Source: a virus
Reading direction: 5' to 3' (one strand)
Length of the DNA stretch: 64,000 nt
IMG/VR virus record: IMGVR_UViG_3300014914_000003
Coordinates: 96,024-160,023 of that record
The notes below the pieces were generated by a model. That model was not told where the DNA came from, did not search any database, and saw only the letters and a list, made by a program, of their open reading frames with translations. Made by a program: the position numbers and the translations under genes. Below, one piece after another: positions 13,467-62,455 of the stretch; positions within the stretch are counted from its first letter, which is position 1, and each line of letters opens with the position of its first letter.

Positions 13467-13467
13467 C

Positions 13468-14652
13468 TTAGATTCTCACCCCATCAGCATTCCAGCTTGT
13501 TGCGAACTTCGCAAAAGGACGCCCAATGACCAAATCACAAGTACCAAATGTTGATCCAGTCCCTAACGGTGGGTCTAGATCAACGACAACGGCTTTTCCG
13601 TAATTGCTATCGTCCGTATCTTCGTAAGCCACCATGCAATAACGATCGTTGAAAAGTTGGGCCTTGTGTACGAATGCCGTACCGCCACCATGTATGACAA
13701 GTGGGCTGTCGGGGAACGAGAACACTGTTCCACTCACCGTACCCTGCAAGATTTTCAACTTGGAGGCGTCGTCTGTATCGATATACACAATGTCGATGTT
13801 GTTGTCGCCGTACACGACAGAGCTAACGCATTTGACAGTTCCGCTATTCCATATTTGAATATCCCCATAAGCGGCTGTATCACCACTTCTTGAAGCATGA
13901 ACGATTTGTCCAGTATAGCCGTCGTCCTGATCGACAAAAGTGACTACGAACTCTTCTGCGTCGTGAAGCGGTGTTACGTTGAGATAATAGGGATCAACCG
14001 GACTGGCGACAAAGTTGCTCTCAGTCTTGTTTGTCATCGAATCGCCAACAACTGTCATGTTTCTAGTTTTGCCTTCCGGTGTATTCTTTCTAGCAAAGAT
14101 TAAAACCCGTCCACTATCACAAACGCCAATCGAATGGAAAGCATAGCTTCCCCAAAAAGTACGGAACCTAGCTGTCTGACTGTCTATTGTTGTCCCGGTC
14201 ACATTCGTCACCCTGCTATACTCTCTTTGTGAACAGAAAATCCTAGAGCCAGATGTTAGGGTAGCTGGGTCACCATAGCAATCATCACCAGCTTGGGCGT
14301 ATTGTTCTACGTCACCAAGCGAGACCGTTGTACCCGAGATAGAAGCCAAACCCAACCAGCCAAATGGGCCAGTATCATCGTTGAACTTAACACACACTTG
14401 GTCAGTATCGTATTGACATATACCCAATGCACTGTAATTGTCATTATTCTGATAGTTGCCACTTCTAACCAAAACACCACTGCCCAAAGTCAGATCAGTG
14501 CCATCTCTTGTTGCTGCCAATAGGTACACAGGGTATCCGCTGTCATCCTTCTGATAGAAAACAGCACATGTATTTTCATCAACAGGCATAACCACTTGGC
14601 CACGAACGTCGCCAGTGCAGAATGTATGCTCTTCTCCAACAAGAATAGACAT
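13468..14652 (-). CDS. Beta-propeller-like virion surface protein (394 aa)
   Basis: Start ATG 14652 (MSILVGEEHTF). Repeated units of the kind AVFYQKDDSGYPVYLLA..., DLTLGSGVLV, and VAYEDTDDSNYGKAVVV recur about every 50 residues, as in beta propellers. The same unit fills the N-terminal halves of the genes at 15251 and 17090, so the three are paralogues. Likely a tail or appendage protein involved in host contact. The ATG overlaps the stop of the upstream gene. Confidence 0.6.
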   Translation of the reverse strand: MSILVGEEHTFCTGDVRGQVVMPVDENTCAVFYQKDDSGYPVYLLAATRDGTDLTLGSGVLVRSGNYQNNDNYSALGICQYDTDQVCVKFNDDTGPFGWLGLASISGTTVSLGDVEQYAQAGDDCYGDPATLTSGSRIFCSQREYSRVTNVTGTTIDSQTARFRTFWGSYAFHSIGVCDSGRVLIFARKNTPEGKTRNMTVVGDSMTNKTESNFVASPVDPYYLNVTPLHDAEEFVVTFVDQDDGYTGQIVHASRSGDTAAYGDIQIWNSGTVKCVSSVVYGDNNIDIVYIDTDDASKLKILQGTVSGTVFSFPDSPLVIHGGGTAFVHKAQLFNDRYCMVAYEDTDDSNYGKAVVVDLDPPLGTGSTFGTCDLVIGRPFAKFATSWNADGVRI

Positions 14653-15250: not shown

Positions 15251-17086
15251 CTAACGAATGTACGTGCTTCTATCATCTGGATGCTTCCATCTTTGATCCT
15301 CTGTGACAAACATAGCCTGCCCCCAGAAGATTTCTCCCGCATCTGAGTTCATCTGGTAGTAGAGGTGCCCACTGTAATGCGTTGGCAGGTGTTCTGTTGA
15401 CCAACCCCAGTAGTTGGTGTCACCGATCTGGTAGCAACCACTCGACGCTAACGCAAGGGCTGTGTTTACCCCGTTGGTGATGTCCCACACCTGAACCGTA
15501 ACGAGTGTCGCTGCCGTATCAAACGATCCGACGAACTGTGGATCATAATCTGGTGTCTTCTCTAGCCAATCAAACGCCTGTCCCGACGCCGCCGCTCCAC
15601 CCGATGCCGCCACTGTACCTCTGGTGAATAGGTCGCACGAACCTGTTGTCGCCCCTGTCGCACCATTGGTGTACAGATCACCGGAAGCCCCGATGTCTGT
15701 TAGCCCCTTGATAAATAGGTCTCCAGAACCAAGGTGATTATCATATCCACCCACAAACATGTCACTAGATGCTTGTGTGGTTTTCAGGCCGTTGACAAAC
15801 AGATCGCCGGAAGCCGACCACGGTGTCGATGACAAACCTTCGATGAACAAATCGCCGGAAGCAGATATCTCACCAATGTTCGCAATATACAGTGGACTCG
15901 TACCAGAGAATGGGATCGGACCCTGAATGTAGAGACCGATCTGGGCGTCAACGGGTAGTTGGATAATACGAGCAGTACCGTAGTTACTATTCGCCGTATC
16001 CCTATAAGCAACCACAGCGAATGGATATGTTAGAAGCGTAGCGTGGTGATCAGCCGAACTAGCCTCATGCCATATTTCGGCATCACTGTATGCCTGTGTA
16101 TCGCCTGTAATCTTACCACGAGCAATCTTGCCATAACTACTATCGCTTCGGTCTACATAGAGAATATCAAATTCATCCTCGTCTTTGGCCACAGAGGCCC
16201 CGAGATAGATACTATTCGTAGTAAGCAGAGCATTATCCTCAACGGCAATGACACGCGATGCACCACTGGTCGAGATGTATGTGGCACGAAGATCATCTGC
16301 CCAGTTGTGTGCTATAGCCAGTTTCGCAACTGTACCAGAAGACAACAAAACTGGTTCGTTTTCTCGCGGCTCCCATGCCGCAGCAGGAGCAGTGTATATA
16401 TTTTTAGACGCACCACGAGTAAGAACCGTGCCGCTTCTTGTGTATATGGCACCTCTTAGATATTTGGTGGCCCAAAGTCGTTGGCGACTCCAGGTCATCA
16501 AAGCGCGGTCTTCGTCAATAATGGTGACTCTTGGATGATCTACATAACTTTCATTTATGGCCGATTCCACCCCGAGAGATATTGTTGTGCCAGTAATACT
16601 AGCAATCTTAGACCTTAAATATTGACCATTCCAGGTATTCTCATAGTCTAGAGTCCACATCACCTTATCGTTTGTGAAAGCAGCACAAGCAACACTTTTT
16701 GTCTTATTTGCCAATCCGGCGCTGTGGTGATACGTGGCACCAGATGTCAGCACGTCGCCACTTACGGTACACACAAGACCATAGGAGTAAAAATCTGTTA
16801 GAACATATGCCACAAAAATACTGTCTTCATCAAGAACAGCAACATCATGTGTTTGGCGAGCATAATCGTAGTGCGCCCCCGCATTCAACACGCCTGGAGT
16901 AAAAGTAAGAGTTGGCCCATATGTGATATCGGTGCCACTCCTGGTACCAACACATATCTTACCCTTATCGCTATCTGCGGCATCTCTCCAGGCGACTACG
17001 AATTTGTCGTCGGAAAGTGCGCGGACAACGGGGACTTCCGTTGAACCACTCGCAAAAACAAATTCACTCCCAAGTGTTATAGCCAC
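15251..17086 (-). CDS. Large modular virion surface protein (611 aa)
   Basis: Residues 1-370 are propeller-type repeats (DDKFVVAWRDAADSDKGKI). Then come tandem 15-20-residue units around SGDLFI-x-G (SGDLFIEGL, SGDLFVNGL, SGDLFIKGL). A C-terminal module (VQVWDITNG; ASSGCYQIGD; GWSTEHLPT) follows, ending WKHPDDRSTYIR. The module order matches 17090-19840, suggesting duplication. Likely a receptor-binding or decorating fibre. Confidence 0.6.
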   Translation of the reverse strand: MAITLGSEFVFASGSTEVPVVRALSDDKFVVAWRDAADSDKGKICVGTRSGTDITYGPTLTFTPGVLNAGAHYDYARQTHDVAVLDEDSIFVAYVLTDFYSYGLVCTVSGDVLTSGATYHHSAGLANKTKSVACAAFTNDKVMWTLDYENTWNGQYLRSKIASITGTTISLGVESAINESYVDHPRVTIIDEDRALMTWSRQRLWATKYLRGAIYTRSGTVLTRGASKNIYTAPAAAWEPRENEPVLLSSGTVAKLAIAHNWADDLRATYISTSGASRVIAVEDNALLTTNSIYLGASVAKDEDEFDILYVDRSDSSYGKIARGKITGDTQAYSDAEIWHEASSADHHATLLTYPFAVVAYRDTANSNYGTARIIQLPVDAQIGLYIQGPIPFSGTSPLYIANIGEISASGDLFIEGLSSTPWSASGDLFVNGLKTTQASSDMFVGGYDNHLGSGDLFIKGLTDIGASGDLYTNGATGATTGSCDLFTRGTVAASGGAAASGQAFDWLEKTPDYDPQFVGSFDTAATLVTVQVWDITNGVNTALALASSGCYQIGDTNYWGWSTEHLPTHYSGHLYYQMNSDAGEIFWGQAMFVTEDQRWKHPDDRSTYIR

Positions 17087-17089
17087 AGC

Positions 17090-19840
17090 TTACACCAAAT
17101 AATCCCCTCTATCGCTAGGGTGAATCCATTTTGCACCTTCTGGTACATCCATGATGAATTGTCCGTCAAACGTTTCGCTCGCGTCGGAAGTCATGAGATA
17201 GAAATATTGCCCTGCATGTCCATCGGGTGTTGGTAGATTGGCGGTAGACCAGCCCCATCTGCCAGTATCACCTATTTGGTAACAACCACTGCTTGCCAAA
17301 ACCATCGCTGTGTTTGATCCGTCCGTCACATCCCATACTTGAATATTCACGAAGTTGGCCGCTGTCTCGAACGTACCAATGATCTGCGGATGATGATCTG
17401 ATGCCCTTAGAAGCCAATCAATTGGTCGTGCCAAATCGCCAGACTCAGGTGGGGCGGTTGTGATACCACGGATAAAAATGTCTGCATCACCAGATGATGG
17501 TCGTGGGCTGCTCATGAACAGATCGACGTTGTCGGACGCTGCGTAGATACCATGGGTGAACAGGTCGCCAGACGCAACAGAGTCGTTGTCAGCCAGTACG
17601 AACATGTCGCATGAATCAGATGATACCGCATGTCCCTGGATGTACAACCGTAGATTGTCGTGGCCATAGATGAACAGGTTACACTGCCCTGTTTGGTCTG
17701 TGTGCCCACGAGTAGATAGGTCGCCGGATGCCTCTGTGTTTTCATGTCCATCGATAAACAAATCACCGGAGGCAGCGAATTCTGTGACGAGTTCGACTCC
17801 ACAAATGTACAACGGCAGATTCTTGCCACCGGCTATGAAGCAATCACACGTCCCCGTGTCTTCTGCATAGCCTTGTATGAAGAGATTACACGAACCAGAA
17901 TCAGTGCCACCATATTGGTCGTACTGATCCATCGTAGCACCATGATTCTTACCTAGCTCGTATAGCCTGCTGACCTGGAAGTCATCAAATGGGCCAGCCA
18001 GTTCTGTCCAACAAACCACTTCGTCCACAACAAGTGGCGGTGAAAATCCGTTCAAATCTGTCATGTAGACCGAATTGTATCGTTGACCAGACATCGCCGT
18101 AGTCATGGCAGAATCATCTAGTAGATAGGTCAGCGGTTCACCATCGATGCTTCCATAGACATGCCAGTTGCCGCCAGACATTTCAGCATACAGCACCACA
18201 AAATGCCAGTCTTCGTCGTCTGGCACTGAACCAAACGTGGCATCATCACCTTGAACATCATCAACAGCAAGAGTCGCTTTGCCAGCAGTACCCCACAATG
18301 TGAATCCGTTGAAATCATTCGGAGATGTGCTGGTCAAACTATTGCCAATGTATAGAACGGAATCTCGGCTGCTAGAAAAGAATCCCTTGGTCCAACAGGC
18401 GACGGCTATGCTAGTAGCATTTTCAAATGAAGGATAACTACCAGCTTGATTGTCGTAAGATATTTCAGCTTCAGTATCGACATCAATAATGGCACCATTA
18501 GCTAATATCCCACCAGAAAATGGGAAATATTGTTCGTCCCAATCAGCTTGTAATGTGTGCTCTGTCACGTCATCAAGGGGGTGATAGAAAACAACACTCT
18601 CGGGATGCTTCATTCCGAACGTATCTCGGGCTTCCAAGAAGAGGTTGCCAGAACCAGAGAATTCCGTTGGTGTTGGAGCACCTCCCTCTCCCAAATCAAC
18701 AATCATCGTGTATCCACTGGCACTATCGAACACGTTGTAGGAGATAGCAATGGCATCATCTGTTAGGGCGGCACACTGGGCACTACCGAGAGTATCATTG
18801 TGTACCTCGTCGTCACAGAAAACCCCCGACTGGGTGTAGGTAATGGCCGTCCCCGAAACTTCCCCGACCATCCACGTTCCCTTGCCTGAATTGCCCTGAT
18901 CGGAGAAGGTGAACACAAATTTGTTGTCGCCAATTCGCTGTTGACTAATATATGGGACACTGTTGCCAGAAGCAAAACCATATCTTTGGCCGAAGGTAAT
19001 CGTTGTTCCACTAACTTCACCAACAACCATATACCCACTCGGAGTACCTTCGTTGGTGCTGTACCCGAGCACAAACTTTTCTGTATTCAACACACATGTT
19101 CGTAGGCCATATGCGTATATTGAAGCGACACCAGGATCATGAAAGGTTGTGGCGATACCAGCGCTCGGCGCTCCAGAATCATTGTAGTCGAGGATGCGAG
19201 CTTTGGCTCGGTATATCCCCCCAGTCAAGTGGCGATAAGTCACAACTGCATGGCCAGCGGCGGGGTTGATGACCTGACATTGATTGTACGTCATATCTGG
19301 CGTACTTTCAGAGACTACTTCGGCTCTAACGGAGATACTTTTGTCTCCAGCGACATCAGCCGAGAAACTTCTCATCCGGTTACCAGACAAATAACGGAAG
19401 TTACATCCGACGTGACCCGAACTCAGAGCAGAAACACTCATCAGGTTTTGATTAGAGCTATCCGACCATTCTGTCGCTGTTCCCCATGAAATGGTTTGTC
19501 CACTGACACTACCGCATTTGTGGATACCCTCAGCGGTAGATACTTCTACACCGTCCACGTCTTTAGAATAGACATAGATGCGATCGGCGTCACCGGAAGG
19601 CCACAACTCTCCACTCGGGAGAGCATCCATATCCAGCCACCAACCAGCACCGTCGAAAACATTATAGCCAGACCCAACAGATACCTCAGTTCCGATGCGA
19701 TCACAAATCACAACACGGCATCTGTCGGTACCAGTGGTGGTTCTGTATCCAATGGCATATTTGTCATCGGTCAACCGGCACATAGCGCCATTGTTGTGAC
19801 GACCATCATTGAACAGGACCGGTGTTCCGCTGGTAGCCAT
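17090..19840 (-). CDS. Large modular virion surface protein with LamG-like domain (916 aa)
   Basis: The longest virion gene here. Modules: propeller-type repeats (1-390), a concanavalin/LamG-like domain beginning VVFYHPLDDVTEHTLQ (about 415-640), SGDLFIDG/SCNLFI-type repeats, then the C-terminal module (VQVWDVTDG; ASSGCYQIGD; GWSTANLPT) ending WIHPSDRGDYLV. LamG-like folds often bind glycans, so host recognition is a reasonable inference. Confidence 0.6.
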   Translation of the reverse strand: MATSGTPVLFNDGRHNNGAMCRLTDDKYAIGYRTTTGTDRCRVVICDRIGTEVSVGSGYNVFDGAGWWLDMDALPSGELWPSGDADRIYVYSKDVDGVEVSTAEGIHKCGSVSGQTISWGTATEWSDSSNQNLMSVSALSSGHVGCNFRYLSGNRMRSFSADVAGDKSISVRAEVVSESTPDMTYNQCQVINPAAGHAVVTYRHLTGGIYRAKARILDYNDSGAPSAGIATTFHDPGVASIYAYGLRTCVLNTEKFVLGYSTNEGTPSGYMVVGEVSGTTITFGQRYGFASGNSVPYISQQRIGDNKFVFTFSDQGNSGKGTWMVGEVSGTAITYTQSGVFCDDEVHNDTLGSAQCAALTDDAIAISYNVFDSASGYTMIVDLGEGGAPTPTEFSGSGNLFLEARDTFGMKHPESVVFYHPLDDVTEHTLQADWDEQYFPFSGGILANGAIIDVDTEAEISYDNQAGSYPSFENATSIAVACWTKGFFSSSRDSVLYIGNSLTSTSPNDFNGFTLWGTAGKATLAVDDVQGDDATFGSVPDDEDWHFVVLYAEMSGGNWHVYGSIDGEPLTYLLDDSAMTTAMSGQRYNSVYMTDLNGFSPPLVVDEVVCWTELAGPFDDFQVSRLYELGKNHGATMDQYDQYGGTDSGSCNLFIQGYAEDTGTCDCFIAGGKNLPLYICGVELVTEFAASGDLFIDGHENTEASGDLSTRGHTDQTGQCNLFIYGHDNLRLYIQGHAVSSDSCDMFVLADNDSVASGDLFTHGIYAASDNVDLFMSSPRPSSGDADIFIRGITTAPPESGDLARPIDWLLRASDHHPQIIGTFETAANFVNIQVWDVTDGSNTAMVLASSGCYQIGDTGRWGWSTANLPTPDGHAGQYFYLMTSDASETFDGQFIMDVPEGAKWIHPSDRGDYLV

Positions 19841-33129: not shown

Positions 33130-34140
33130 CTAGATTCGCTTGCCCTTCTTCACAGCCTTGAAAACCCCGCCCTGACGTGTTTCGTGGGCGTTCCTCATAC
33201 GGCCAACTCCAGCCCCACGGTACATTGCTTCGTTTTTCGGTGATTTCTTCCTTTTCTCGATATTCCCTGCCACGTCTTCATAGTCGATATCATCAGGGGT
33301 GGCGATTTCAGTGTTGTAGATGTACTTGTGAGACAGCAGGAGGGCTGTGTAGCGATCCTTGAGAAGTCTACCCTTACGGGCACGACCCTCGACGGCTCCG
33401 ACCTTGACAACCTGTGGGGTGTCGAATCTCTCTCTGCCTGTCGCAGTTTCGCTCATCTGGATGGTACAAAGCTCATTCTTTAATTCTTCAAGATTGAACA
33501 CATTTTCCTCGAAGGTGTCGAAAATGACACCAGCCGACTTTTCAGCCTCTATGGCGGCATACATTTTCACGCTATCGAAGGCGGGGAACAATAGGGTACG
33601 TGTCTCCAGGCTCTTGTGCAGGGCAATGTTGGCATCCTGGTTGTACTCAGTGCTTTGCTTGACGAGATGGAGGATGTGGCGTCCATCTGTCTCGCCATCG
33701 GTTTCCTTCGGTTCGTCGAAGTCGATTACCTCATAGATCGGGAAATCGCCCTCATCCATATTCATCAGTTTCTTGTTTCGCAACATCTCCGCTACGGCGT
33801 AGCCACCACCCTGACTATCCATCTCGATGCGCACAGGACTGAATAGCCGAACCACTTCACGAATCCTCGCACAACAATATGCGTAGTAGTCATCGTCGGT
33901 AATCAACCCGCGCTTCTTGCGCTTCATGAATTCCTTTTTGTTCACAGCCCAACAATAGACTACGCGATAGTGGTTGGGCCAAACTTCGGTCATAGTGATC
34001 GCAAGATTGTCTCGTTCGGCAGCGGGGTCAACACCCATCACATACTTCCGCTTCGACTGGGCTCTCATAAGTGGAGTGAATGTTACAGCACCGTCTGGTG
34101 TTGTTATCGGCTTATTGGGGTCCGACAGTACATGCCTCAA
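33130..34140 (-). CDS. Large terminase, nuclease domain (separate frame)
   Basis: RNase H-fold nuclease of TerL: first Asp in KYVMGVDPAAERDNLAI, second in RIEMDSQGGG, later acidic residues near the end (KGRLLKDRYTALLL). It begins at a TTG (34140) without a ribosome site and overlaps the ATPase ORF by 29 nt in the +1 frame. Normally both domains are one protein. Either +1 frameshifting at CCC-C (34117-34120) joins them, or the subunit is truly split. Confidence 0.8.
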   Translation of the reverse strand: MRHVLSDPNKPITTPDGAVTFTPLMRAQSKRKYVMGVDPAAERDNLAITMTEVWPNHYRVVYCWAVNKKEFMKRKKRGLITDDDYYAYCCARIREVVRLFSPVRIEMDSQGGGYAVAEMLRNKKLMNMDEGDFPIYEVIDFDEPKETDGETDGRHILHLVKQSTEYNQDANIALHKSLETRTLLFPAFDSVKMYAAIEAEKSAGVIFDTFEENVFNLEELKNELCTIQMSETATGRERFDTPQVVKVGAVEGRARKGRLLKDRYTALLLSHKYIYNTEIATPDDIDYEDVAGNIEKRKKSPKNEAMYRGAGVGRMRNAHETRQGGVFKAVKKGKRI

Positions 34141-36493
34141 TCAAGCTACGTGGATAGAACCCATCTGAGTCTTTGACGAAAACAGCCCCATACTCCATGA
34201 GGTAGATGTTGCGAGGGAGTGTCGCCTTGGCGTGAGCCAACTGTCTTTGGTCCAGTAGGCCTTCGGGTAGATGTGTATGCGGGATACGAATGATAGAATA
34301 GTCCCTATGGTTGAAGCCATCGGGGACGAGGTTCTCGCCTCCGAAAATCTGAGCCACCTTCTCTGGATCACCTTTGCTGGCAATGATCTCTTTCCACATC
34401 TGATATCTCTTGGCAAAATGATTGAAAGCATAGTATGCTGTACCAGAATACACGATTTGGTTACCGCGCATCTTATCATCGTCGGTTGTCAGTCTCTTCT
34501 TCTCCCCTGCTGGCAGATCGAGTTTTGCCAACTGTTTCTCAAATGCTAGTTTCTTCGCTTCCTCCACAGGAGTTTTTGCCGTCGCGGCAAAACCACGCAC
34601 AACCACATCGAATACATCCTCTGGGATGGATGCGAACTCGTCGGCGATAACGACGTTAGCGCGGAAACCTCTGATTTTCGTGTTGTGACTGTAAAAGCCA
34701 TTGGCACAATATTCATGGCCATCTGGAACATGAACATCGAATGCAACACACTCATCATCTTCTATTGAAACGATTTCGTCATAATAAACATCTGGATCAG
34801 CAAGACAACGAACAGTATCAATGCGTGAATCATCTATGTGTCCATAAACTCGTAGAAAATTATCAACCAATGGCCTACTAACGGATTTTTTAACTTTTAG
34901 TCCACCCGCACAAACAGAAACACAATTGCTAGTACCGTGTTCAGCTCGATTGTTCTCTGAAATATCTATCATATCATCTAATACATCTGGAATGTTATCG
35001 TTCTGATCCATCCATCGTTTTTTCTTCTCGATTCCAGCCAGTAATTTATCTTGTTTCCTCTTCAGACGAAAACCTATTTCAGTAGCGAAAATCAACACGT
35101 CCCTACCAGTTATTGAAAGCTCATAGCATTCTTCCCATTTTTCGTCACGTTTACGAGATTTGACATGTGCTACGATTCCATAATGCAATAATATATACTG
35201 AAGTTGTCTAACTAGTTCTCTGCTGGTGTTATAAAATGTGACACCTATCTGGGTGCCACCTCGCTCTGTTGTAACCTGAACATGGCCATCCGTGTCGAAC
35301 AAACCGGAAATAAAAGCGGATGTTATATTACGTGGTGATTTGAGAATGGTGGACGGGAATTGTTTGTCTTTTGTTTTGAGATGATCAACGTCTATATCAA
35401 ATCTTCTGAATATAGCATCAATCTTTTTGTGTCCATACATATTCCAATGCACTATATCGGAAGATTGCTTGAAAGGACCAACAGCCTGAATGGCCTCGGC
35501 TAATTCTGTATCTTGTGTAGCAAAACCCAATCTGTATCCATTTTGGGCAATGAAACATCCACCCCCAGTAAGCAAACCGATACCATAAGCTTCGCTTTCT
35601 GAAATCTCACCATTTCCATTATGCCAGCGGACAGAACGATCTAATAAAATACGATCACCAATTTTTATTTCATCCATCTGTACCCACACAACACACTTGT
35701 TTCTAACAACTTTTAATCGATGATTATGAGTTGCGTTAAATTCGAATCCATGATGTGTCTTGATTTTTTTGGTTTTGGATGTTCCATTGCAATAAGATTC
35801 ATCACTCAATCTGAATTCTTTATTACCCCATACCAGTCTTTCTCTGTCTACGATATTTTTAGCAGATTGAAATAATGGCTGATCATCTGCGAGGGTTCCG
35901 AAACCATCTCCATAAAGTGTAAGCGTATCTTTTGAAGCACAGCCGTCCCCCATAGGCAGTGCGTAGATAATCGAATCGCCAATGCGAAAATAGCAAAGGT
36001 CCACATTCTGTCTGGGGCCAGCCTTCTTCCCGCCACCGACAATGTTGCGAAGAACAGGAGCATTTGTCCAGATGGTATCTATGTAGTTGAACACCAATCG
36101 AGCTTGACGTAAACCAGCACCAACGATAACGATCTTGGCACCTGGGTCCAACAACGCCCTTAGAACTGCATACACGGCCAGCATAAAGGACTTACTACCA
36201 CCACGACAGGCGATCAGCATTGGGAACGGAGTGTTCCACATCATCTGAAGCGTAGCGATCTGGATAGGAAACAGATCAAGCCCTAAGACCACCTTCGCTG
36301 TCCAGCCAATGTAGTTGATATCGAGCATCCTGCTGACGACTACCTGATCCAGCGGGTCTTTGGATTGCTTCAAATCCGTGAAAATGTGTTTGCGCACTGT
36401 TGGCACACGATCACGGTATGGGAACAGATACCCATATCGGCCTTGATCTGAATGCAATAAATCGTGTAATATTGTTTGTTGTTTTTTATTCAT
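34112..36493 (-). CDS. Large terminase, ATPase domain with intein (793 aa precursor)
   Basis: ATG 36493 overlaps the HNH stop (ATGAATAA). Walker A-like ACRGGSKS at residues 95-102 and Walker B NVVIADE after the intein. Residues 185-604 are an intein, so the spliced ATPase part is about 373 aa. It ends YPRSLIEACTVGPQ-stop, just where other TerL proteins continue into the nuclease. The last codons are GGA CCC CAA TAA. Drives ATP-dependent DNA packaging through the portal. Confidence 0.88.
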   Translation of the reverse strand: MNKKQQTILHDLLHSDQGRYGYLFPYRDRVPTVRKHIFTDLKQSKDPLDQVVVSRMLDINYIGWTAKVVLGLDLFPIQIATLQMMWNTPFPMLIACRGGSKSFMLAVYAVLRALLDPGAKIVIVGAGLRQARLVFNYIDTIWTNAPVLRNIVGGGKKAGPRQNVDLCYFRIGDSIIYALPMGDGCASKDTLTLYGDGFGTLADDQPLFQSAKNIVDRERLVWGNKEFRLSDESYCNGTSKTKKIKTHHGFEFNATHNHRLKVVRNKCVVWVQMDEIKIGDRILLDRSVRWHNGNGEISESEAYGIGLLTGGGCFIAQNGYRLGFATQDTELAEAIQAVGPFKQSSDIVHWNMYGHKKIDAIFRRFDIDVDHLKTKDKQFPSTILKSPRNITSAFISGLFDTDGHVQVTTERGGTQIGVTFYNTSRELVRQLQYILLHYGIVAHVKSRKRDEKWEECYELSITGRDVLIFATEIGFRLKRKQDKLLAGIEKKKRWMDQNDNIPDVLDDMIDISENNRAEHGTSNCVSVCAGGLKVKKSVSRPLVDNFLRVYGHIDDSRIDTVRCLADPDVYYDEIVSIEDDECVAFDVHVPDGHEYCANGFYSHNTKIRGFRANVVIADEFASIPEDVFDVVVRGFAATAKTPVEEAKKLAFEKQLAKLDLPAGEKKRLTTDDDKMRGNQIVYSGTAYYAFNHFAKRYQMWKEIIASKGDPEKVAQIFGGENLVPDGFNHRDYSIIRIPHTHLPEGLLDQRQLAHAKATLPRNIYLMEYGAVFVKDSDGFYPRSLIEACTVGPQ
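34682..35941 (-). mobile_element. Intein with LAGLIDADG endonuclease, in TerL
   Basis: 420 residues from Cys (CASKDTLTLYGDG) to His-Asn, followed by extein Thr. Splicing blocks visible: A (Cys1), B (ATHNHRL), F/G (AFDVHVPDGHEYCANGFYSHN). Two LAGLIDADG helices, AYGIGLLTGGGCF and AFISGLFDTDGHV, form the homing endonuclease. The first has GGG in place of the usual acidic residue, so nuclease activity is doubtful. Inserted between Walker A and B, a common TerL site. Confidence 0.9.
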
Positions 36494-36890
36494 ATCGAAT
36501 ATCCAACCTATCTTTTTTAACATACCTGTTACACGCCAGACACAAAAGAGATAAATTGTTGAGATCAAAAAGCGTTGCCAACTGTTCACGAGATAATGCT
36601 GACGAAATTGGTATAAACCGATGTTCGTAGTTACCTAATTTTGTAGACCGCCTCTTTCTAACCCATTCGTTTTTCTTCTTCTTATATGAATCTGTCGAAT
36701 GATTGATTTTCTGATGTTGTCGCCGACACAGCAAACATTCCGGTTTCCCAGAAGGGTTGATATAAAATTCTGTTATCCCATGATGTCTACAAAGCATTAA
36801 AGCTCTCTTGTCATCAATCTTACGAATGATCGCTTTTTTGGGTTGACCAGGGGTAATATTCGTACTGAGATCATATCTCTTAGCACCCAA
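36486..36890 (-). CDS. HNH endonuclease, truncated form (134 aa)
   Basis: TTG start at 36890 overlapping the ERCC4 gene. It shares ALMLCRHHGITEFYINPSG and LFDLNNLSLLCLACN with the 12079/29179 paralogues, but the central CxxC...DH core is missing; RFIPISSALS remains. Probably inactive. Both ends overlap neighbours, so the operon reads through it. Confidence 0.65.
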   Translation of the reverse strand: MGAKRYDLSTNITPGQPKKAIIRKIDDKRALMLCRHHGITEFYINPSGKPECLLCRRQHQKINHSTDSYKKKKNEWVRKRRSTKLGNYEHRFIPISSALSREQLATLFDLNNLSLLCLACNRYVKKDRLDIRYE

Positions 36891-51309: not shown

Positions 51310-52107
51310 CTATTGATATTCTTGCCATTCCTTCTCGGCCACGACGCTAGCGCACCGAACAATAGTTCCCATGTCGCAGTCGTACAAACCAGCGCAACTA
51401 AAACTGTTAATCTCAAGCAGATACATTTTGCCATCCGACTCAGCAATGTCTACTGTATAACACAGATCAGGTTGCCACTCTTGCGATGCTACTAACTCGG
51501 CTAGACGAAAAGATGAGGGCGGGTAATTGGGTGACTCATCTGGGAGATACCTGCACCCAGCTACAACCTCTCTGTCGCAGATAACGAAACGCCACTCGGC
51601 ACCGACGGGCTTCTCTGGAGCGACAACAATTAGCATTTCTGGACCAACCGCTCGTACTAGCGTTTGGATTTTGTGCTTCTCATCTGGTGCGACTACATAT
51701 CCAGTGAAGGGTTTGGCACCACTGTCTGGTCGCAAGAACCATGATTGACCTGGCGATTGTTTCGTGAGCTTGTCCCATTTTCTCAATAGGTCGCCGACTG
51801 GCATCATGCTATATTGCTGGTTAAGTAAGTGCCCACCGAGATATGCGTAATAAGTGCTACATTTCATGTTGTTGAAATTACACCAAGCACCCGGAATGAA
51901 TGGTGCCCGTTGATAGACTTGTCGCACAAAATCGATGTCGCCATAACAGACAATGCAATCATGGGGATCATACCCGTCGAAGTCAACCTGAGACCCAAGC
52001 TTGTGTTCGATCTCCCGGACCTTCATGTCTTGCTTAAAAACTTCGGCAATCATTGGCCCAGTGTTTACACCTTCCATGTCTATTTGTATCATCCAGTCTG
52101 GTCTCAT
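51310..52107 (-). CDS. ATP-grasp protein (DUF4343-like)
   Basis: A 265-aa protein. SWFLRPDSGAKPFTGYVV (ATP-binding loop), EWRFVICDREVVAGCRYL, and YTVDIAESDGKMYLLEINSFSCAG (the D...E-x-N metal site) define an ATP-grasp ligase. It would couple a carboxylate to an amine; substrate unknown. A second, divergent relative lies at 58203. Confidence 0.8.
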   Translation of the reverse strand: MRPDWMIQIDMEGVNTGPMIAEVFKQDMKVREIEHKLGSQVDFDGYDPHDCIVCYGDIDFVRQVYQRAPFIPGAWCNFNNMKCSTYYAYLGGHLLNQQYSMMPVGDLLRKWDKLTKQSPGQSWFLRPDSGAKPFTGYVVAPDEKHKIQTLVRAVGPEMLIVVAPEKPVGAEWRFVICDREVVAGCRYLPDESPNYPPSSFRLAELVASQEWQPDLCYTVDIAESDGKMYLLEINSFSCAGLYDCDMGTIVRCASVVAEKEWQEYQ

Positions 52108-53459: not shown

Positions 53460-53696
53460 TCATTCGTCATCTGGGTCTCCATCTATGTCTGCTGGTACAT
53501 CTCCGTCCAGAATCACCAACTTCTGATCCAGGTCGTCCTCGACATATGTGATGCAACCGCCAAAGTGCCGTATGCCTTCGATTATCTGGTAGATGCCATC
53601 TATGGTGTCCAGATGAAGCATGAAGGCTTCGGCGTTCTCAGAGGCATCCCTGCCCCTGAAAACGAAACTCACTTCGACCACTTGCGGTTTAGGCAC
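53460..53696 (-). CDS. Hypothetical protein (78 aa)
   Basis: GTG start overlapping the collagen-like gene's end. VPKPQVVEVSFVFRGRDAS..., ending in an acidic tail (DVPADIDGDPDDE). Unknown. Confidence 0.55.
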   Translation of the reverse strand: MPKPQVVEVSFVFRGRDASENAEAFMLHLDTIDGIYQIIEGIRHFGGCITYVEDDLDQKLVILDGDVPADIDGDPDDE

Positions 53697-55467
53697 TGTA
53701 TCGCCTCGAACGGAACCGCATCAAACCCAGTGGGAGCAACATGCCAACGACTGTCAGACCGCCGAAAGCACCACATGGACCAGCGCCGCCACCGGGTGCC
53801 TCTTCGACAACCTCTTCCTCTTCAGGGAAGAAACCTGTCAGGATGTCCTCAATCGAATCAGCGCCGCTTCCACAGTTGTAGACCAACACCTCAGAGTCGC
53901 CACAGGCAACGAGACAAGTGGCATCCAGGTTGTCAATGACATCACAGCCCTCTCCGTCAAGGCCGTCGATACCGTCAACACCGTCTAAACCATCCTGTCC
54001 CGGAGGCCCCTGCGGACCATCCTGGCCGTCTACACCATCGATCCCGTCAGCGCCATCAGCACCATCAGAACCATTTGATCCGTTAGAACCATTGGCACCA
54101 TCGGTCCCATCGGAGCCGTCTGCGCCGCTACCACCATCGCTGCCATCATTGCCGTCACTACCGTCGTCACCCTGGCAGTCGAGAGCGTCGAACTCTCCGT
54201 CGCCGTTGGGGTCTTCGGTATAGCCACAGATGAGAGCAATAGCGTCCGAATCGAACTCTGTGAAGGTGGTCAGATATTCCGAACAGGTGACCACAGCACC
54301 ACACTCACCGTCGTAGGTCTTAGCGGCCCGCATCGCCTTGCTCGTAGCGGGCGGGAACTCACACTCGTAATCGATGAAGAAGTCTTCTGCTACCGGACAG
54401 ACATCGTCAAACATGCTGGCCAATTGCGGGTGGCAAGCATCCTGTTCGCCATTCCCGTTCAAGTCCCAGCAGTTCAAACCATCCGCACCATCAACTCCAT
54501 CTTCACCATCGGCTCCGTCCTCACCATCGGCCCCATCCTGGCCATCTGCCCCGTCTTCGCCGTCTTCACCATCTTCGCCGCGACAGTCATAAACATCAAC
54601 CTCTCCGTCGCCATTGGTATCCTCGGTAAAGCCGTCACCCCGACAAGCTTCTGCCCACGGGAAGAAACAGCACCAGAAAGGCTTCTCGGCGTAAAAGTCC
54701 TTCTCACCGTTGCCATTCAAGTCCCAACAACTCAGACCGTCTTCACCGTCTTCGCCGTCAACGCCGTCTTCGCCATCGTGAACGATGACACTCGTGCCGT
54801 CGCCGCACTCAATTTTGTAACCACCGCAACGACGCTCACGAACCGTACAGCCTTCTCCATCCTGGCCGTCTGCGCCATCTTGACCATCGGCTCCATCCTC
54901 TCCGTTCTCACCATCGGCTCCGTCGAAGATCGAGGTGCATGTCTCACCACAGCAGATTTCGGCACCGTCTTTGATCTGGGTCACGACACAGTCGTCGCCA
55001 TCTTCGCCATCCTCACCGTCTTCTCCGTCTTCACCGGGCGGGCCTTGAGGACCAGGGATACCACAGGATACAATTTCAAGATTCACATTCTTCGTGTCCT
55101 TGTTGTTGTCGCACCCTTCCCTCTCGAATATCTTGACCTGCACATTACCGACACCCTGAGTACCAGGGGCGATAATCGTGAAGACCTCAGTGAAGGTCTT
55201 CGCTCCGTAGCCCGTATAGTGACAATCATGCTCGTAACACACACCATCGATGCTAGTGCTATTCCACTTCTGCTTGCTGTGCTGGCTGTACGAGCGGTCG
55301 CGCATCTTGACAACAACAGTGACCTCTACCTCGTCACCCGCACACGCCGTAGCGGGGTCGAGTGTTACCGACTCGATGTTGTTGTAGCTAGAACCAGATG
55401 CCTGCGCTGCATTCGGCACCATAGCTGTACAAAGACAAATCAGCAAACCTACAAGTAACTTCTTCAT
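53689..55467 (-). CDS. Collagen-like surface protein with signal peptide and C-terminal anchor
   Basis: A 592-aa protein. Signal peptide MKKLLVGLLICLCTAMVPNAAQA; beta domain (about 30-130). Then several Gly-X-Y collagen blocks (GEDGEDGEDG; GPQGPPGQDG) separated by EF-hand/dockerin-like calcium loops (DLNGNGEKD, DTNGDGEVD, DLNGNGEQD, DPNGDGEFD) and Cys-rich segments. The C-terminus has PGGGAGPCGAFGG, a hydrophobic helix and RFRSRR, resembling bacterial GlyGly/MYXO-CTERM sorting tails. Such tails are typical of host exported proteins and rare in phages. Confidence 0.8.
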   Translation of the reverse strand: MKKLLVGLLICLCTAMVPNAAQASGSSYNNIESVTLDPATACAGDEVEVTVVVKMRDRSYSQHSKQKWNSTSIDGVCYEHDCHYTGYGAKTFTEVFTIIAPGTQGVGNVQVKIFEREGCDNNKDTKNVNLEIVSCGIPGPQGPPGEDGEDGEDGEDGDDCVVTQIKDGAEICCGETCTSIFDGADGENGEDGADGQDGADGQDGEGCTVRERRCGGYKIECGDGTSVIVHDGEDGVDGEDGEDGLSCWDLNGNGEKDFYAEKPFWCCFFPWAEACRGDGFTEDTNGDGEVDVYDCRGEDGEDGEDGADGQDGADGEDGADGEDGVDGADGLNCWDLNGNGEQDACHPQLASMFDDVCPVAEDFFIDYECEFPPATSKAMRAAKTYDGECGAVVTCSEYLTTFTEFDSDAIALICGYTEDPNGDGEFDALDCQGDDGSDGNDGSDGGSGADGSDGTDGANGSNGSNGSDGADGADGIDGVDGQDGPQGPPGQDGLDGVDGIDGLDGEGCDVIDNLDATCLVACGDSEVLVYNCGSGADSIEDILTGFFPEEEEVVEEAPGGGAGPCGAFGGLTVVGMLLPLGLMRFRSRRYSA

Positions 55468-58048: not shown

Positions 58049-58213
58049 CTACTTGCACTGGTCAGGATGATCCTGCTTGTACTGTTCCCACTCACGCTGT
58101 TTGTAGTTCGCCGGGGTATGCGGGTCTTCCGGCCACCACCATGAGAACGGGCGCGGAGGGGCACATCCGGTCAGGAGCAGGACGACAATCAGACCGATAA
58201 TCCTACTTCGCAT
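58049..58213 (-). CDS. Small lipoprotein (54 aa)
   Basis: ATG 58213: MRSRIIGLIVVLLLTGC with a clear lipobox (LTGC), then Pro/Trp-rich PFSWWWPEDP and a charged tail. Size and Pro content are Rz1-like, but no partner is proven. It overlaps the ATP-grasp-like stop. Confidence 0.65.
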   Translation of the reverse strand: MRSRIIGLIVVLLLTGCAPPRPFSWWWPEDPHTPANYKQREWEQYKQDHPDQCK

Positions 58214-58922
58214 TGGGACACCCCGGCCAGTGATAGCTTTGCGCGGCAGCGGCCATGTCTATGAGATACCACTTACCCTCTTTCTCAGACCAGAGCCAGT
58301 CGATGGACCATTCTTCACCAAGCTCTCCCCCGACTTCGCTGCTGAGTCCCGATAACAGACTGACTTCATCTTCATCCTCGACGTTGATTGCAGCCAGAAG
58401 CTCTTCCCAGTTGAAGGGCTCGTTGCCTCGCAAGAATGCTTCTCGTGGCCAGTAAGGGTGATGACACACCACTGTTGCGTCACGCACGAAATACCGACGC
58501 TCTTTGACAATCGGCATATCACCCGGAAAGGCAATGAACGCAGCCAGGGTCGGCAGAAGATTCCTTACAACCCAACAGTCGGTCGGGAAGCCCATCATGT
58601 CTGCCATAGCACTCTCTTCAACCAGACGAAAGACGTGGTCGCTGACATCGGTCGATGCGGGTATGTGGCAGGTGTTCTTCCAGTTGTGCTTACCACTCAG
58701 GTAGTCCGTTCGCAGAAACATCGGCCATCCAAGTTTGTAGCCAGCCTGGGTGATGTCCGCAATCAGAATGTCGAAGCCCTCTGGGATTTTGCCGTCCAGG
58801 AGGTTGATCAGGTCTTCCCCGGTATACGGAATGATCGTGGTCTCTGGTGTCGAGATATGCGACGGCAGCTTCGGGTACCAGTACGAAAGCCGGTTGCGGT
58901 CTTCAGGGCGTCCTCTGTTCAT
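58203..58922 (-). CDS. ATP-grasp-like protein (239 aa)
   Basis: The start is placed at ATG 58922 (MNRGRPEDR) behind GGAAG; the longer frame reads through a tRNA-like gene. YKLGWPMFLRTDYLSGKHNWKNT, CWVVRNLLP, and EEWSIDWLWSEKEGKWYLIDMA resemble the ATP-binding and metal-binding regions of ATP-grasp folds. Divergent from 51310. Confidence 0.55.
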   Translation of the reverse strand: MNRGRPEDRNRLSYWYPKLPSHISTPETTIIPYTGEDLINLLDGKIPEGFDILIADITQAGYKLGWPMFLRTDYLSGKHNWKNTCHIPASTDVSDHVFRLVEESAMADMMGFPTDCWVVRNLLPTLAAFIAFPGDMPIVKERRYFVRDATVVCHHPYWPREAFLRGNEPFNWEELLAAINVEDEDEVSLLSGLSSEVGGELGEEWSIDWLWSEKEGKWYLIDMAAAAQSYHWPGCPNAK

Positions 58923-58934
58923 GTTTTCTTCCAA

Positions 58935-59005
58935 AGCCGGGAGCGGGTATCGAACCCATTGGGTATCAGCGTCCTGACCCCTAGCCGCCAGTTGGTTCTC
59001 CCGGC
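58935..59005 (-). tRNA. tRNA-like gene, anticodon uncertain
   Basis: 71 nt. Acceptor GCCGGGA/TCCCGGC is a perfect 7-bp stem. T arm is ATGGG-TTCGATA-CCCGC (one mismatch), and the D loop contains TGG. The anticodon arm does not fold normally: GGT-CAG-GACG-CTG-AT-ACC has a 4-nt loop and a bulge. It lies between a promoter and the ATP-grasp-like gene, so it is co-transcribed. Confidence 0.5.
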
Positions 59006-59065
59006 AAGACACAAAAGGGCAATGGTTGTGCATCGCTCATGAGAGCAGACGTAGACTGCTATCTT

Positions 59066-59093
59066 ATTATACGTGCAACTGCCCTCCGCATTC
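59066..59093 (-). promoter_or_regulatory. Promoter, family RAACAR-N16-TATAAT
   Basis: Minus strand GAATGC-N16-TATAATAAG, spacer ending CAGTTGCACG. The -35-like box is weak, but spacing and -10 context match. It drives the tRNA-like and ATP-grasp-like genes. Confidence 0.5.
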
Positions 59094-59320
59094 CACCCAT
59101 CTCCGATTTTTTTTCAGGTGAAGGGCTGTCCGATAAGGCGGTTGATGCAGGTGCTCAGAAAAGGGGGGACCCCTGTTGTTGCCTAAAAGGCGGGGGTTGA
59201 AGTGGGTGTCAACTGTGCGGCATAAGGGTGAAGGACAAGGCGAGTGGTGCAAAGAAGAGTGTACACGAAAAGTGGGAACCAGTTGATTTTTCGAGCCTAC
59301 TATGACTAAGCCCCCATGCG
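59094..59320 (+). other. Intergenic region between divergent arms
   Basis: 227 bp with no supported gene. Contains a T8 run, GGGGGGACCCC, and at 59258 GTGTACACGAAA, the word that also follows the right-arm promoter at 60290. One GTCCGATAA occurs in reverse orientation near 59130. Confidence 0.5.
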
Positions 59321-59530
59321 TTATCGGACCCACCCCAGTTATCGGACCATTCTATTTATCGGGCGTAGCCCTCCAGGCCGAGTTATCGGACCTCCCACCC
59401 ACCAAACTTATCGGACCAACACACCTGATCCAATCCTGAAAAAATTATCGGATGCATGTGTTATAGGTCTATGCTCTTGCATGACATGCAAGGCAAGTTA
59501 TCGGACCCAAAAGATTCCTGTGCTTCCCCC

Positions 59531-59559
59531 TTGCTATCGTGTCGAACGTATCCTATACT
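59531..59559 (+). promoter_or_regulatory. Sigma70-type promoter P1
   Basis: TTGCTA, 17 bp, TATACT, followed by repeated GAACGAACGAAAC. Weakest of the four right-arm promoters. Confidence 0.6.
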
Positions 59560-59601
59560 CTATTAGAACGAACGAACGAAACACAACGAAAGGAACGAAC
59601 G

Positions 59602-59763
59602 ATGAATTATCAGACGCTACTCGACAATACGATGCACTGGCTGTTCTCCGACCCTATGCACGCGGTGTGTGTTGTGGCTGGAATTGCTGTGCTAGGTGCG
59701 ATAAACGGGGTCCGCCTCAGCTTGAAACGTTGCAAAGGTCCGTATAACGGACGCATCCTGTAG
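59602..59763 (+). CDS. Small membrane protein (53 aa)
   Basis: ATG 59602 behind AGGAACGAACG. MNYQTLLDNTMHWLFSD..., membrane span (HAVCVVAGIAVLGAI), and a basic end. The first codons contain the array variant TTATCAGAC. Confidence 0.55.
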   Translation: MNYQTLLDNTMHWLFSDPMHAVCVVAGIAVLGAINGVRLSLKRCKGPYNGRIL

Positions 59764-59796
59764 GGTACGATAACCACCAGAACAAGGGGCGATAAC

Positions 59797-60033
59797 ATGA
59801 ACATGACACTCATCAAGTATCGGACCACCGAAACGCCCCATAATCAGTACGCTGTAGTGCCAACGATATGGGTATCGGACCTACTCCACTGGCTCACGTT
59901 ATCGGAATTAGCAGAGATTATCTCGACCGATAATAACTGTGACGATGGAGCTATCCTTCCGATAACATGGCCGAGTTATGAGACGTGCCGTGAGTGTATG
60001 AGAATATCGGACGTAGTGGCCTTGTGCCGATAA
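59797..60033 (+). CDS. Hypothetical early protein (78 aa)
   Basis: ATG 59797 behind AAGGGG. MNMTLIKYRTTETPH.... Peptides YRT, VSD and ISD are encoded by the array motif in different frames. No family. Confidence 0.5.
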   Translation: MNMTLIKYRTTETPHNQYAVVPTIWVSDLLHWLTLSELAEIISTDNNCDDGAILPITWPSYETCRECMRISDVVALCR

Positions 60034-60046
60034 TAAGGAGAACGCC

Positions 60047-60217
60047 ATGTATGGTAAAGCTACGCTTGACATCCCAGCGGTTGGAGATATCGGACACTCA
60101 CACACAGAAGGACTATCGGACCTACCAAGACCAACAACGATACGGATAATATCGGACCATGCTCGGCTCGTTATCGGACCTTGGGCCGTGAGGCGTGTTA
60201 TGGGACGTGCGAGGTGA
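60047..60217 (+). CDS. Hypothetical early protein (56 aa)
   Basis: ATG 60047 behind a strong AAGGAG. MYGKATLDIPAVGDIGHS.... Four array copies give DIG, LSD, ISD and VIGP; the TATGGGAC variant gives VMGR. Confidence 0.55.
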   Translation: MYGKATLDIPAVGDIGHSHTEGLSDLPRPTTIRIISDHARLVIGPWAVRRVMGRAR

Positions 60218-60266
60218 GTTTGTTATAGGGCGTTCCTTTTTTTCTGAAGATTGTTGGTTATGGGAC

Positions 60267-60295
60267 TTGACTTCTGGTCGCATGTATGCTATAAT
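60267..60295 (+). promoter_or_regulatory. Sigma70-type promoter P2
   Basis: TTGACT, 17 bp, TATAAT, then ATAGTGTACACGAAAGGAG. A TATGGGAC array variant (60259-60266) abuts the -35 box. Confidence 0.85.
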
Positions 60296-60320
60296 ATAGT
60301 GTACACGAAAGGAGACAATT

Positions 60321-60665
60321 ATGGGACCATTCGATGATCTCGGACCATACGCCGAAACTACGATAACGACAAGGAAAACGGACGCTGACAAGGCGACCGA
60401 TAATGAATCCCATTTCGGTCATCTTGTTATCGGAACCTTGTTGCTTGGTCCAGCATTATGGGTCGTTGTGTTTATGGGACTATTCTGCTGGAAGTATATC
60501 GGACCTCTCTCCGCTGCCGGTCTTATCGGACTAGGCTTCTGGGCGTGCGGACATTATGGGACTAACAGGTCGGTTCTGGACCGCTTCCGTTATCGGACCA
60601 CCAAGGCGCAGCGAGAGACAATCCAGCGCAGATTATCGGACATCAAAGATTCTGGAAGAAAGTAG
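60321..60665 (+). CDS. Two-span membrane protein (114 aa)
   Basis: ATG 60321 lies inside a TATGGGACC array variant, behind AGGAG. Hydrophobic segments LVIGTLLLGPALWVVVFMGLF and AAGLIGLGFWACG. The array is read as YIGP, LIGL, HYGT, YRT and LSD, that is, in all three frames. Confidence 0.6.
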   Translation: MGPFDDLGPYAETTITTRKTDADKATDNESHFGHLVIGTLLLGPALWVVVFMGLFCWKYIGPLSAAGLIGLGFWACGHYGTNRSVLDRFRYRTTKAQRETIQRRLSDIKDSGRK

Positions 60666-60675
60666 GTTATCGGGT

Positions 60676-60704
60676 TTGACTTTTGGTCGTGCCGATGGTA
60701 TAAT
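60676..60704 (+). promoter_or_regulatory. Sigma70-type promoter P3
   Basis: TTGACT, 17 bp, TATAAT, then ATAGTGTAGGCGAAAACG. TATCGGGT (60668-60675) abuts the -35 box exactly as in P2. Confidence 0.85.
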
Positions 60705-60754
60705 ATAGTGTAGGCGAAAACGAACGATTCTCGAACCTTTATGGGAGATTCACG

Positions 60755-61120
60755 ATGCAGAAAGTTATCGGACAGACGGGCACGAGTGTGCTATCGGACG
60801 AGAAAATCCAGTATAAGCTGGCGAGAAAGCGGACGGTCCGATATTGGTACATGAAGTGCCAGCATGGTTATCGGGCCGAGGTGGTTGGGCCATTTCACAG
60901 CGAACTTTATGGGGCGTGTGGTTTTGGGACCAAGAAGACTTCGGCTAAAGCCGCACTTGAACGGAACCTTGCCAACAACCAAGGTTATATCGGACGCTTG
61001 TTGTTCACGACCGTAGATGAAGCCGATAATGTTGGTCGTGTCGATCCAAGGTTATTGGACGAGAATGCGACATCACGACCGATAAGCAACGGCGAACTTA
61101 TCGGAAGCGCTGGGCAGTAG
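60755..61120 (+). CDS. Hypothetical early protein (121 aa)
   Basis: ATG 60755 behind GGGAG. MQKVIGQTGTSVLSDEK..., basic N-terminal half with KRTVRYWYMKCQHGYRAEVVG, and KKTSAKAALERNLAN like a small nucleic-acid-binding fold. Array copies encode VIG, LSD and YIGR. Confidence 0.6.
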   Translation: MQKVIGQTGTSVLSDEKIQYKLARKRTVRYWYMKCQHGYRAEVVGPFHSELYGACGFGTKKTSAKAALERNLANNQGYIGRLLFTTVDEADNVGRVDPRLLDENATSRPISNGELIGSAGQ

Positions 61121-61182
61121 GTTCTCGGACGTAGGGCGGGGTGGGGTTTTCGGACCTTGCCCCGCTCGGTGGAGTGTGAGTT

Positions 61183-61269
61183 ATGAGACTCTGGCGACTA
61201 TCGGACGAACAATGGTTTTGGCGCAAGACTGTATTTCTTGCGGTTCTGATAACCATAGCAATATGGTAG
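61183..61269 (+). CDS. Small membrane peptide (28 aa)
   Basis: ATG 61183 behind GGAGTG. MRLWRLSDEQWFWRKTVFLAVLITIAIW, a single hydrophobic helix. An alternative GTG at 61176 opens a longer, less convincing frame. Confidence 0.4.
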   Translation: MRLWRLSDEQWFWRKTVFLAVLITIAIW

Positions 61270-61279
61270 GAGTGATAAC

Positions 61280-61363
61280 ATGGCACGTTACCGGACCACA
61301 GCCAGGACCATCTGCCGTTATCGGACCTTGGGCCGTGAGGATATTATGGGACTTGTGCGATAA
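61280..61363 (+). CDS. Small Arg/Thr-rich ORF (27 aa)
   Basis: ATG 61280 behind AGGAG. MARYRTTARTICRYRTLG..., almost wholly composed of array words read as YRT. Translation is plausible; function unlikely to rest on a conserved fold. Confidence 0.35.
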   Translation: MARYRTTARTICRYRTLGREDIMGLVR

Positions 61364-61886
61364 CGTTTACCCTGTGTGTGTTCTAGTACATGGATTATCA
61401 CTCTGGTCCGGGAATATCGAATGTGAGTTTTTTGCGTGACATTATGGGACGTTATCGGACCTTCACCTCGGTCGGACGTTCCGAATTATCGGACGTTCCG
61501 CCGTGGGCGATTATGGGACGGGTCCGGGAACTAGTTTGGTGCGTGTGATAATATGGCCGTTTTTGAGCACGAGAACGCGGTTTTCGGGTTCTGGGACGTG
61601 CAGATTATCGGAAAGGGTAGATAATATCCCGGTTTTCGGCGTTTTCGCGGGTTATCGGACCAAAAGCGGCGCGAGTTATGAGACTCGCGTAACGTGTTTT
61701 ATCGGAACATCCGGTAATGTAGCGGTTTGGGGCGGATTGTGCGAGTTTTTATCGGCGAACGACCGATATGTGATCTCAGAAAACGGACGTAATCGCGACT
61801 TCGATATTATCGGGCGTTGCCTATAATATGTGCGTTTTTGGGCGATCAGGCGGGAAGTTATCGGCAAAAAATTCTGAGAATGAGTG
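61364..61886 (+). other. Array-rich region without convincing genes
   Basis: Several short plus-strand frames exist (for example MAVFEHENAVFG at 61553-61624 and MDYHSGPGISN from 61392) but none has a clear ribosome site or recognisable protein. Contains three array copies, two TATGGGAC copies and many GATAA/TTATC words. Confidence 0.5.
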
Positions 61887-61915
61887 TTGACGACTTGTAT
61901 AACTAACGGTATAAT
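61887..61915 (+). promoter_or_regulatory. Sigma70-type promoter P4
   Basis: TTGACG, 17 bp, TATAAT, then CTAATGTAGGACGAAAC. No array copy at the -35, unlike P2 and P3. Confidence 0.85.
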
Positions 61916-62140
61916 CTAATGTAGGACGAAACGATAACACAACGAAAAGAACGGACCGAAACGGTCCGCGTGTGTTATTGGACGCAAACCGACGCGGTTA
62001 TCACAACCGCCGATAATTAGTGGCCTGCGCAATGTAGGTCCGAATATGAGTTTCAGTACGAGTTCACTACTTGTCCGTCCGATAGTCTGGACGGTGTAGT
62101 CGTGGATTATCGGGCGGGCTTTGTCTCTGGGGAGATGATT
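61916..62140 (+). other. Long 5' leader of the 104-aa gene
   Basis: About 220 nt between P4 and the ATG. Holds a perfect hairpin (CGGACCG-AAA-CGGTCCG, about 61951-61967). Near 62077 GTCCGATAGTCTGGAC combines the reversed array word with the GTCTG word of the next region. Could be a regulatory leader. Confidence 0.45.
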
Positions 62141-62455
62141 ATGAGTCAGTCTGATAATGCTGGAACGTCGGTCGAGTTTGGTGCGAAGCAACTCCAGGCC
62201 AATGCTGCTGTCTACCATGGCGCGAAGCGGATCGTCGATGCCGCGTCTGGTTTCGACAGTCTCGATGACGCCGTCGCTGCGCTCACGGAAGCGTGGGAAG
62301 TCTTGGAGGCGCAGGTCGAGTCGGGCGCGGGATACACGCCCGATAGGGAGTTGGGCTTCGGGTCTGATAACGCCGCCGTGATTGCCGAGTCGATTCTCGG
62401 TCGTCGCAACAGCGTCGGCGCTACTCGCAGGGCGTTCAACAACATGGGCAAGTAG
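62141..62455 (+). CDS. Hypothetical early protein (104 aa)
   Basis: ATG 62141 behind GGGGAGATGATT. MSQSDNAGTSVEFGAKQLQ..., Ala-rich and helical (DSLDDAVAALTEAWEVLEAQV). Different in style from the array-coded ORFs and more clearly a normal protein. No family. Confidence 0.6.
   Translation: MSQSDNAGTSVEFGAKQLQANAAVYHGAKRIVDAASGFDSLDDAVAALTEAWEVLEAQVESGAGYTPDRELGFGSDNAAVIAESILGRRNSVGATRRAFNNMGK

Follow-up and report, generated by a model that had tools for sequence, protein, structure and literature searches.

What function could a short word have that recurs dozens of times, in one orientation, across the early genes of a phage? The window, which is the whole 64,000-nucleotide stretch analysed here, comprises the final 64 kb of a viral record of 160,023 bp from an uncultured phage. 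The original prediction described 24 exact copies of an 8-mer in 2.3 kb, all on the plus strand. Indeed, 24 plus-strand copies of TATCGGAC lie at window positions 59322-61660, although one minus-strand copy (60836) also falls inside this range, and the eight variants described with them were recovered as 8 plus-strand copies of TATGGGAC in the same 59.3-61.7 kb. The chance expectation for TATCGGAC is 1.5 copies for the whole 64 kb and both strands, with a maximum of 5 in 100 dinucleotide shuffles, and the copy number is thus far above chance, as had been claimed. However, the true unit is the 9-mer TTATCGGAC, since the T preceding TATCGGAC belongs to the motif; it has 14 exact copies in the array, frequently with a C directly 3' of it. 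The array is also larger than first described: including close variants, about 57 sites lie on the plus strand within 3.1 kb (genome 155200-158300; window about 59.2-62.3 kb). These variants are abundant and mostly forward (TTATGGGAC, TTATCGGAA, TTATAGGAC, TTATCAGAC, ATATCGGAC and TTATCGGGC). In the rest of the 160,023-bp record, the motif is at background level. The array and its left border are arranged as follows.

58622-59321, no strand: cumulative GC-skew minimum (58622) and transcription divergence point, predicted origin region at the array's left edge
59128-59136, minus strand: lone full site between the divergent genes, oriented toward the leftward one
59321-62115, plus strand: array of TTATCGGAC and close variants, densest at 59321-61660 and thinning toward about 62.1 kb

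The spacing of neighbouring sites is irregular, with clusters near 18, 24-27 and 33-36 bp that do not fall at whole helical turns, and the flanks are unrelated, which rules out a simple tandem repeat, as originally stated. A complete palindrome (TTATCGG[AT]CCGATAA) was not found. Five array segments from group A, that is, this phage and its relatives, contain 103 exact 9-mers in forward and 2 in reverse orientation; in these segments, single-base changes in TTATCGGAC are tolerated at certain positions and not at others, as would be expected for a protein site. Since independent contigs from other metagenomes carry the array, an assembly artefact, a possibility raised at the outset, was ruled out. 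A literature search for the 9-mer gave nothing relevant among the matches listed. On the sense strand, there is a further excess of the word CCGATAA, which reverses the first half of the motif and frequently takes the form GACCGATAA (window 59.7-62.1 kb, L088, L103, L109 and L068), and CGATAA forms the spacer within AAGGAGCGATAAnATG start sites.

The array lies just to the right of the point where transcription diverges: the leftward set begins with the gene at 58203-59033, and the rightward small open reading frames (ORFs) begin at 59602. Two ATP-grasp (R2K) proteins are encoded in the window (51310-52107 and 58203-58934), one of them adjoining the array; the second match is under the curated cut-off. 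The genes in and next to the array are listed below.

59602-59763, plus strand: small early ORF, 53 aa, conserved in L103, L094 and L034
59797-60033, plus strand: small early ORF, 78 aa, with embedded sites (YRT, LSD and YET residues), conserved in 6 relatives
60321-60665, plus strand: 114-aa ORF, apparently a membrane protein (by eye), with sites in several frames
60755-61120, plus strand: 121-aa ORF with 6 sites inside, site positions conserved, conserved in 10 relatives
62141-62455, plus strand: gene for a 104-aa all-helical protein (A1 family), nearly site-free, candidate regulator

The family of the 121-aa protein has ten members, which are 25-60% identical to the window protein, and contains 40 sites, distributed over the three frames as 16/17/7 and encoding VIG, LSD or YRT. 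Among them, 63 site pairs share alignment column and frame, a number to which shared ancestry contributes, compared with 1.8 under random shifts. Since the sites occur in all three frames at conserved columns, it is the DNA word that constrains the proteins. The adjacent 104-aa gene (nine members) has 2 sites altogether, and from the difference between the two families we conclude that the constraint acts on the DNA or RNA sequence and not on the peptide. The array genes had no family match. For the 104-aa protein, structure and fold searches gave no match, and a single-sequence search returned two loci, both within already known records.

The relatives of this phage were collected via the major capsid protein (MCP). 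In the complete ones, whose array genes have 25-60% protein identity, the array is preserved with the same orientation and at the same location: the GC-skew minimum at the transcription divergence, just upstream of the conserved 104-aa gene. In nearly every array-bearing MCP relative, the sites have one orientation, with transcription (whole-record counts are, for example, 36/3, 20/2, 4/36, 3/23 and 0/9; control about 1). Wherever a group-A record contains the complete array, the 104-aa gene follows downstream; G016 and G017, which may be fragments, have neither the motif nor the 104-aa gene.

Is the word restricted to these phages? We scanned viral contigs for three copies of TATCGGAC and obtained 99 loci, which fall into two classes, dispersed TTATCGGAC arrays and ordinary tandem repeats. 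In the control scan with the reversed word, most of the hits were tandem repeats; the few remaining loci had exactly three sites each, and several of these were identical in sequence. Besides group A, there are four or more further groups of phages with arrays of this 9-mer.

group A: this phage, 160-180 kb
group B: siphovirus-like, with both site orientations though the local genes run one way
groups C, D and F: T7-like terminase and polymerase, 35-39% to known phages
groups E, I and others: further dispersed-array groups

The groups with dispersed loci do not share most of their proteins, and whole records hold up to dozens of sites, compared with near zero for the control. We found neither a DNA-binding protein or regulator common to the groups nor close cultured relatives of the array-bearing groups. 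One word across several unrelated uncultured phages points to a shared control signal and suggests either a host factor that they have in common or a gene exchanged widely and diverged beyond detection.

The array contains strong sigma70-type promoters, three of which are given here.

60258-60295, plus strand: TTATGGGAC (60258-60266) abutting the promoter TTGACT (60267-60272) N17 TATAAT (60290-60295)
60667-60704, plus strand: TTATCGGGT abutting the promoter TTGACT (60676) N17 TATAAT (60699)
61887-61915, plus strand: promoter TTGACG-N17-TATAAT with GTATAACTA in the spacer, at the array's downstream end, preceding the 104-aa gene

The next site after the first of these promoters, at 60319 (+52 from the -35 start), carries the ATG of the ORF at 60321. 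The type of promoter found at 61887 is conserved in relatives and has no abutting site. We compared site positions with 22 promoters in 15 array segments, using a promoter definition independent of the motif. A site abuts the -35 element in 5 of the 22 strong promoters (0.85 expected, P=0.002), and in 7 of the 22 a site lies 50-55 nt downstream of the -35 start, at about +17 (1.8 expected, P=0.0015). Only 1 site overlaps a core of these 22 promoters, compared with 8.2 expected, a depletion that promoter constraint alone may explain. Five promoters in group E have forward sites 31-66 bp upstream of -35, and in four phages of group B a reversed site lies inside the -35/-10 spacer of the promoter of a 306-aa gene. 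This group-B promoter is located in a long inverted repeat whose arms covary (L351-L355 in G032, L359-L361 in G036, L331-L334 in G031 and L347-L348 in G029).

Our preferred explanation, to which we assign a probability of roughly 0.45, is that the array, in the early/origin region, is a set of DNA sites to which a transcription regulator binds and which work like stoperators. A sequence-specific regulator, encoded by phage or host, would bind the double-stranded sites in this origin-proximal early-control region, beside early promoters and repeatedly along the early genes, with all sites facing one way; the bound protein would hold back or time early transcription, both at initiation and at elongation, in the manner of the L5 stoperators. 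A stoperator-like array is the best among the options of the original prediction. It agrees with what is directly observed, namely the word with its orientation, density, conservation and independence of reading frame, the promoter-flanking positions, the span over early genes and the location at the skew minimum; protein binding to the sites, an action on transcription and repression as its effect are what we infer. The proposal has fared less well in two respects: the 9-mer occurs in unrelated phages, and no cognate monomeric repressor (HTH plus stoperator domain) was found among about 50 of about 177 proteins compared with PHROGs and some compared with Pfam. Further points against a regulator are the group-B arrays in both orientations, the promoter cores that are avoided and not overlapped, and the position at the skew minimum, which also fits replication. 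Classic stoperators are tied to temperate phages; in this phage, only a XerC/D-like recombinase was found.

The genomes of L5 and Bxb1 contain more than 20 asymmetric, transcription-oriented operators and stoperators each, some at promoters and most not (PMC6550527, PMC9283540). The sites described here are likewise asymmetric and predominantly oriented with transcription in group A (the group-B arrays have both orientations), and some are operator-like, standing beside early promoters more often than by chance and without core overlap. However, the site is 9 bp long here and 13 bp in L5 and Bxb1; about 57 sites are packed into 3 kb inside genes, whereas theirs are spread genome-wide over short intergenic spaces; and one word serves unrelated phages, whereas their motifs are clade-specific and diverge with the repressors. 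An L5-type system is further characterized by a bound protein that blocks elongation and by inverted sites that fail to do so. Since the array has neither the genome-wide intergenic placement nor a clade-specific motif, we did not file it as a member of the L5 family. The SRL and SRR of T7 are short-repeat regions. As in group C, they are short repeats near TerL or the early end of T7-like genomes, but the word studied here lies in early genes and is shared by T7-like phages with others. The start-associated sequences of cluster K mycobacteriophages resemble the CGATAA in Shine-Dalgarno (SD) spacers as a recurring short word at start codons, whereas TTATCGGAC itself is not tied to start codons. 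If the regulator explanation is true, this is dense, gene-embedded stoperator-type control outside actinobacterial phages.

Somewhat unlikely, in our estimate, is a second explanation, in which an uncultured host lineage uses TTATCGGAC as a control signal and unrelated phages (group A, T7-like, siphovirus-like and others) independently built dense arrays of it across their early/origin regions, running through coding sequence in all three frames, that exploit or titrate one host DNA-binding factor. If true, the phages would have converged on a signal that a common host factor reads. Either way, the word could serve as a 9-bp bait with which to isolate the regulator and to trace the host of several phage groups without close cultured relatives. 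We consider it unlikely that the array serves as a decoy or for recruitment, either by titrating a host regulator or a defence-linked protein with its many copies or by hijacking a factor to drive early promoters. The recurrence of one 9-mer in groups with neither a common regulator gene nor close cultured relatives would fit such a role, as would the origin of groups A and B from one metagenome (3300028610) and, in groups A and E, the placement of sites upstream of -35, which suits activation; a pure decoy, however, requires neither orientation nor promoter-linked positions. Among 294 Planctomycetota genomes, we found 12 paired sites, more than by chance and compared with 1 for the reversed control. 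In 5 of these pairs the distance is exactly 22 bp, but three of the five are one related locus, and genomes of Phycisphaerales show no enrichment. None of 148 Pseudomonadota genomes has a paired site, two tandem-repeat seeds excepted.

The Planctomycetota direct repeats of TTATCGGAC are 22-23 bp apart (L161, L222, L386-L388 and L391); that of L161 lies beside an integrase-like gene at a tRNA-Ser, that of L222 at a tmRNA, and others upstream of other genes. A circular complete group-B phage of 64 kb (JADLBU010000011.1, L406-L409) was binned with a Phycisphaerales metagenome-assembled genome (MAG), a weak host link. We treat the Planctomycetota and Phycisphaerales observations as host leads. The only long array in the genome collections was in a 'Heimdallarchaeota' MAG, which we rejected as the host because phage contigs had been joined into it with Ns: in the chromosome CP070695.1 (L320-L329), a chimeric scaffold, contigs of a relative of this phage (MCP 86%) are joined by N runs. 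Bacillaceae chromosomes have arrays of TTTATCGGACA with an exact 21-bp spacing and diverged flanks (L153, L162, L187, L188, L194, L200, L203, L224 and L227).

The sites could also bind or titrate a replication initiator, either a host DnaA-like or a phage protein, at an origin overlain by early genes, and replication proteins had been named in the original prediction. In 5 of 5 long genomes (G000, G005, G012, G013 and G014), the centre of the densest 3-kb stretch is 1.2-2.3 kb from the circular GC-skew minimum, and since four of these five records have overlapping ends, this location is not a contig-end effect. A host initiator would explain why unrelated phages share the word. GC skew also tracks gene direction, however, so the minimum is suggestive of an origin and need not be one. 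DnaA boxes have the consensus TTATNCACA, and iterons have regular tandem spacing. Like DnaA boxes, TTATCGGAC is an asymmetric 9-mer that begins with TTATC and lies near a predicted origin, but its second half differs from that of TTATNCACA (GGAC in place of CACA). In contrast to compact DnaA-box or iteron clusters, the sites span 3-4 kb of genes at irregular spacing, in strict orientation and linked to promoters. The position at the skew minimum lent the replication-protein option unexpected support, but we regard this explanation as improbable.

A signal at the RNA level, the second option of the original prediction, would mean that a protein or small RNA binds UUAUCGGAC on the early mRNA. 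The strict sense orientation in group A and the same-strand enrichment of the partly complementary CCGATAA words, some of which are SD-to-ATG spacers, would fit it. However, the motif is unpaired with a probability of 0.40, no different from the values with shuffled flanks (0.43) or for the antisense strand (0.44), the RNA windows around the sites fold only weakly better than their shuffles, and sites occur upstream of promoters, beyond -35, and in both orientations in group B. We therefore consider it very unlikely.

We see hardly any chance that the sites are Chi-like recombination hotspots shielding the genome from a RecBCD/AddAB-type nuclease: the word is short, asymmetric and in a single orientation, as Chi is, but the array is internal in circular-mapping genomes, degenerate variants are abundant, and 32 bacterial genomes, among which the phage's host may not be, show no Chi-like genome-wide excess. 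A DNA uptake sequence, also suggested originally, needs high density over the whole genome, and this option fails on the background level of the motif outside the array.

The capsid and terminase of this phage had no match among 50,697 phage records. The phage encodes its own DNA polymerase, primase, helicase, ribonucleotide reductase (RNR), UvsX and thymidylate synthase, as well as a sigma-factor-like protein of 169 aa (L009:18412-18921). The XerC/D-like tyrosine recombinase (genome, L009:16335-17225) is present in 6 of 7 long group-A genomes. A collagen-like (Gly-X-Y) surface-type protein of 592 aa is encoded at window 53689-55467. Intein-like insertions, recognized by eye and by interrupted family matches, are present in the terminase, RNR, UvsX, DnaB-like and DNA polymerase genes, at the following locations.

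window 34112-36589: intein-like insertion, terminase region
L010:1360-5268, 11514-13787 and 15691-18396: intein-like insertions
L011:802-4395: intein-like insertion
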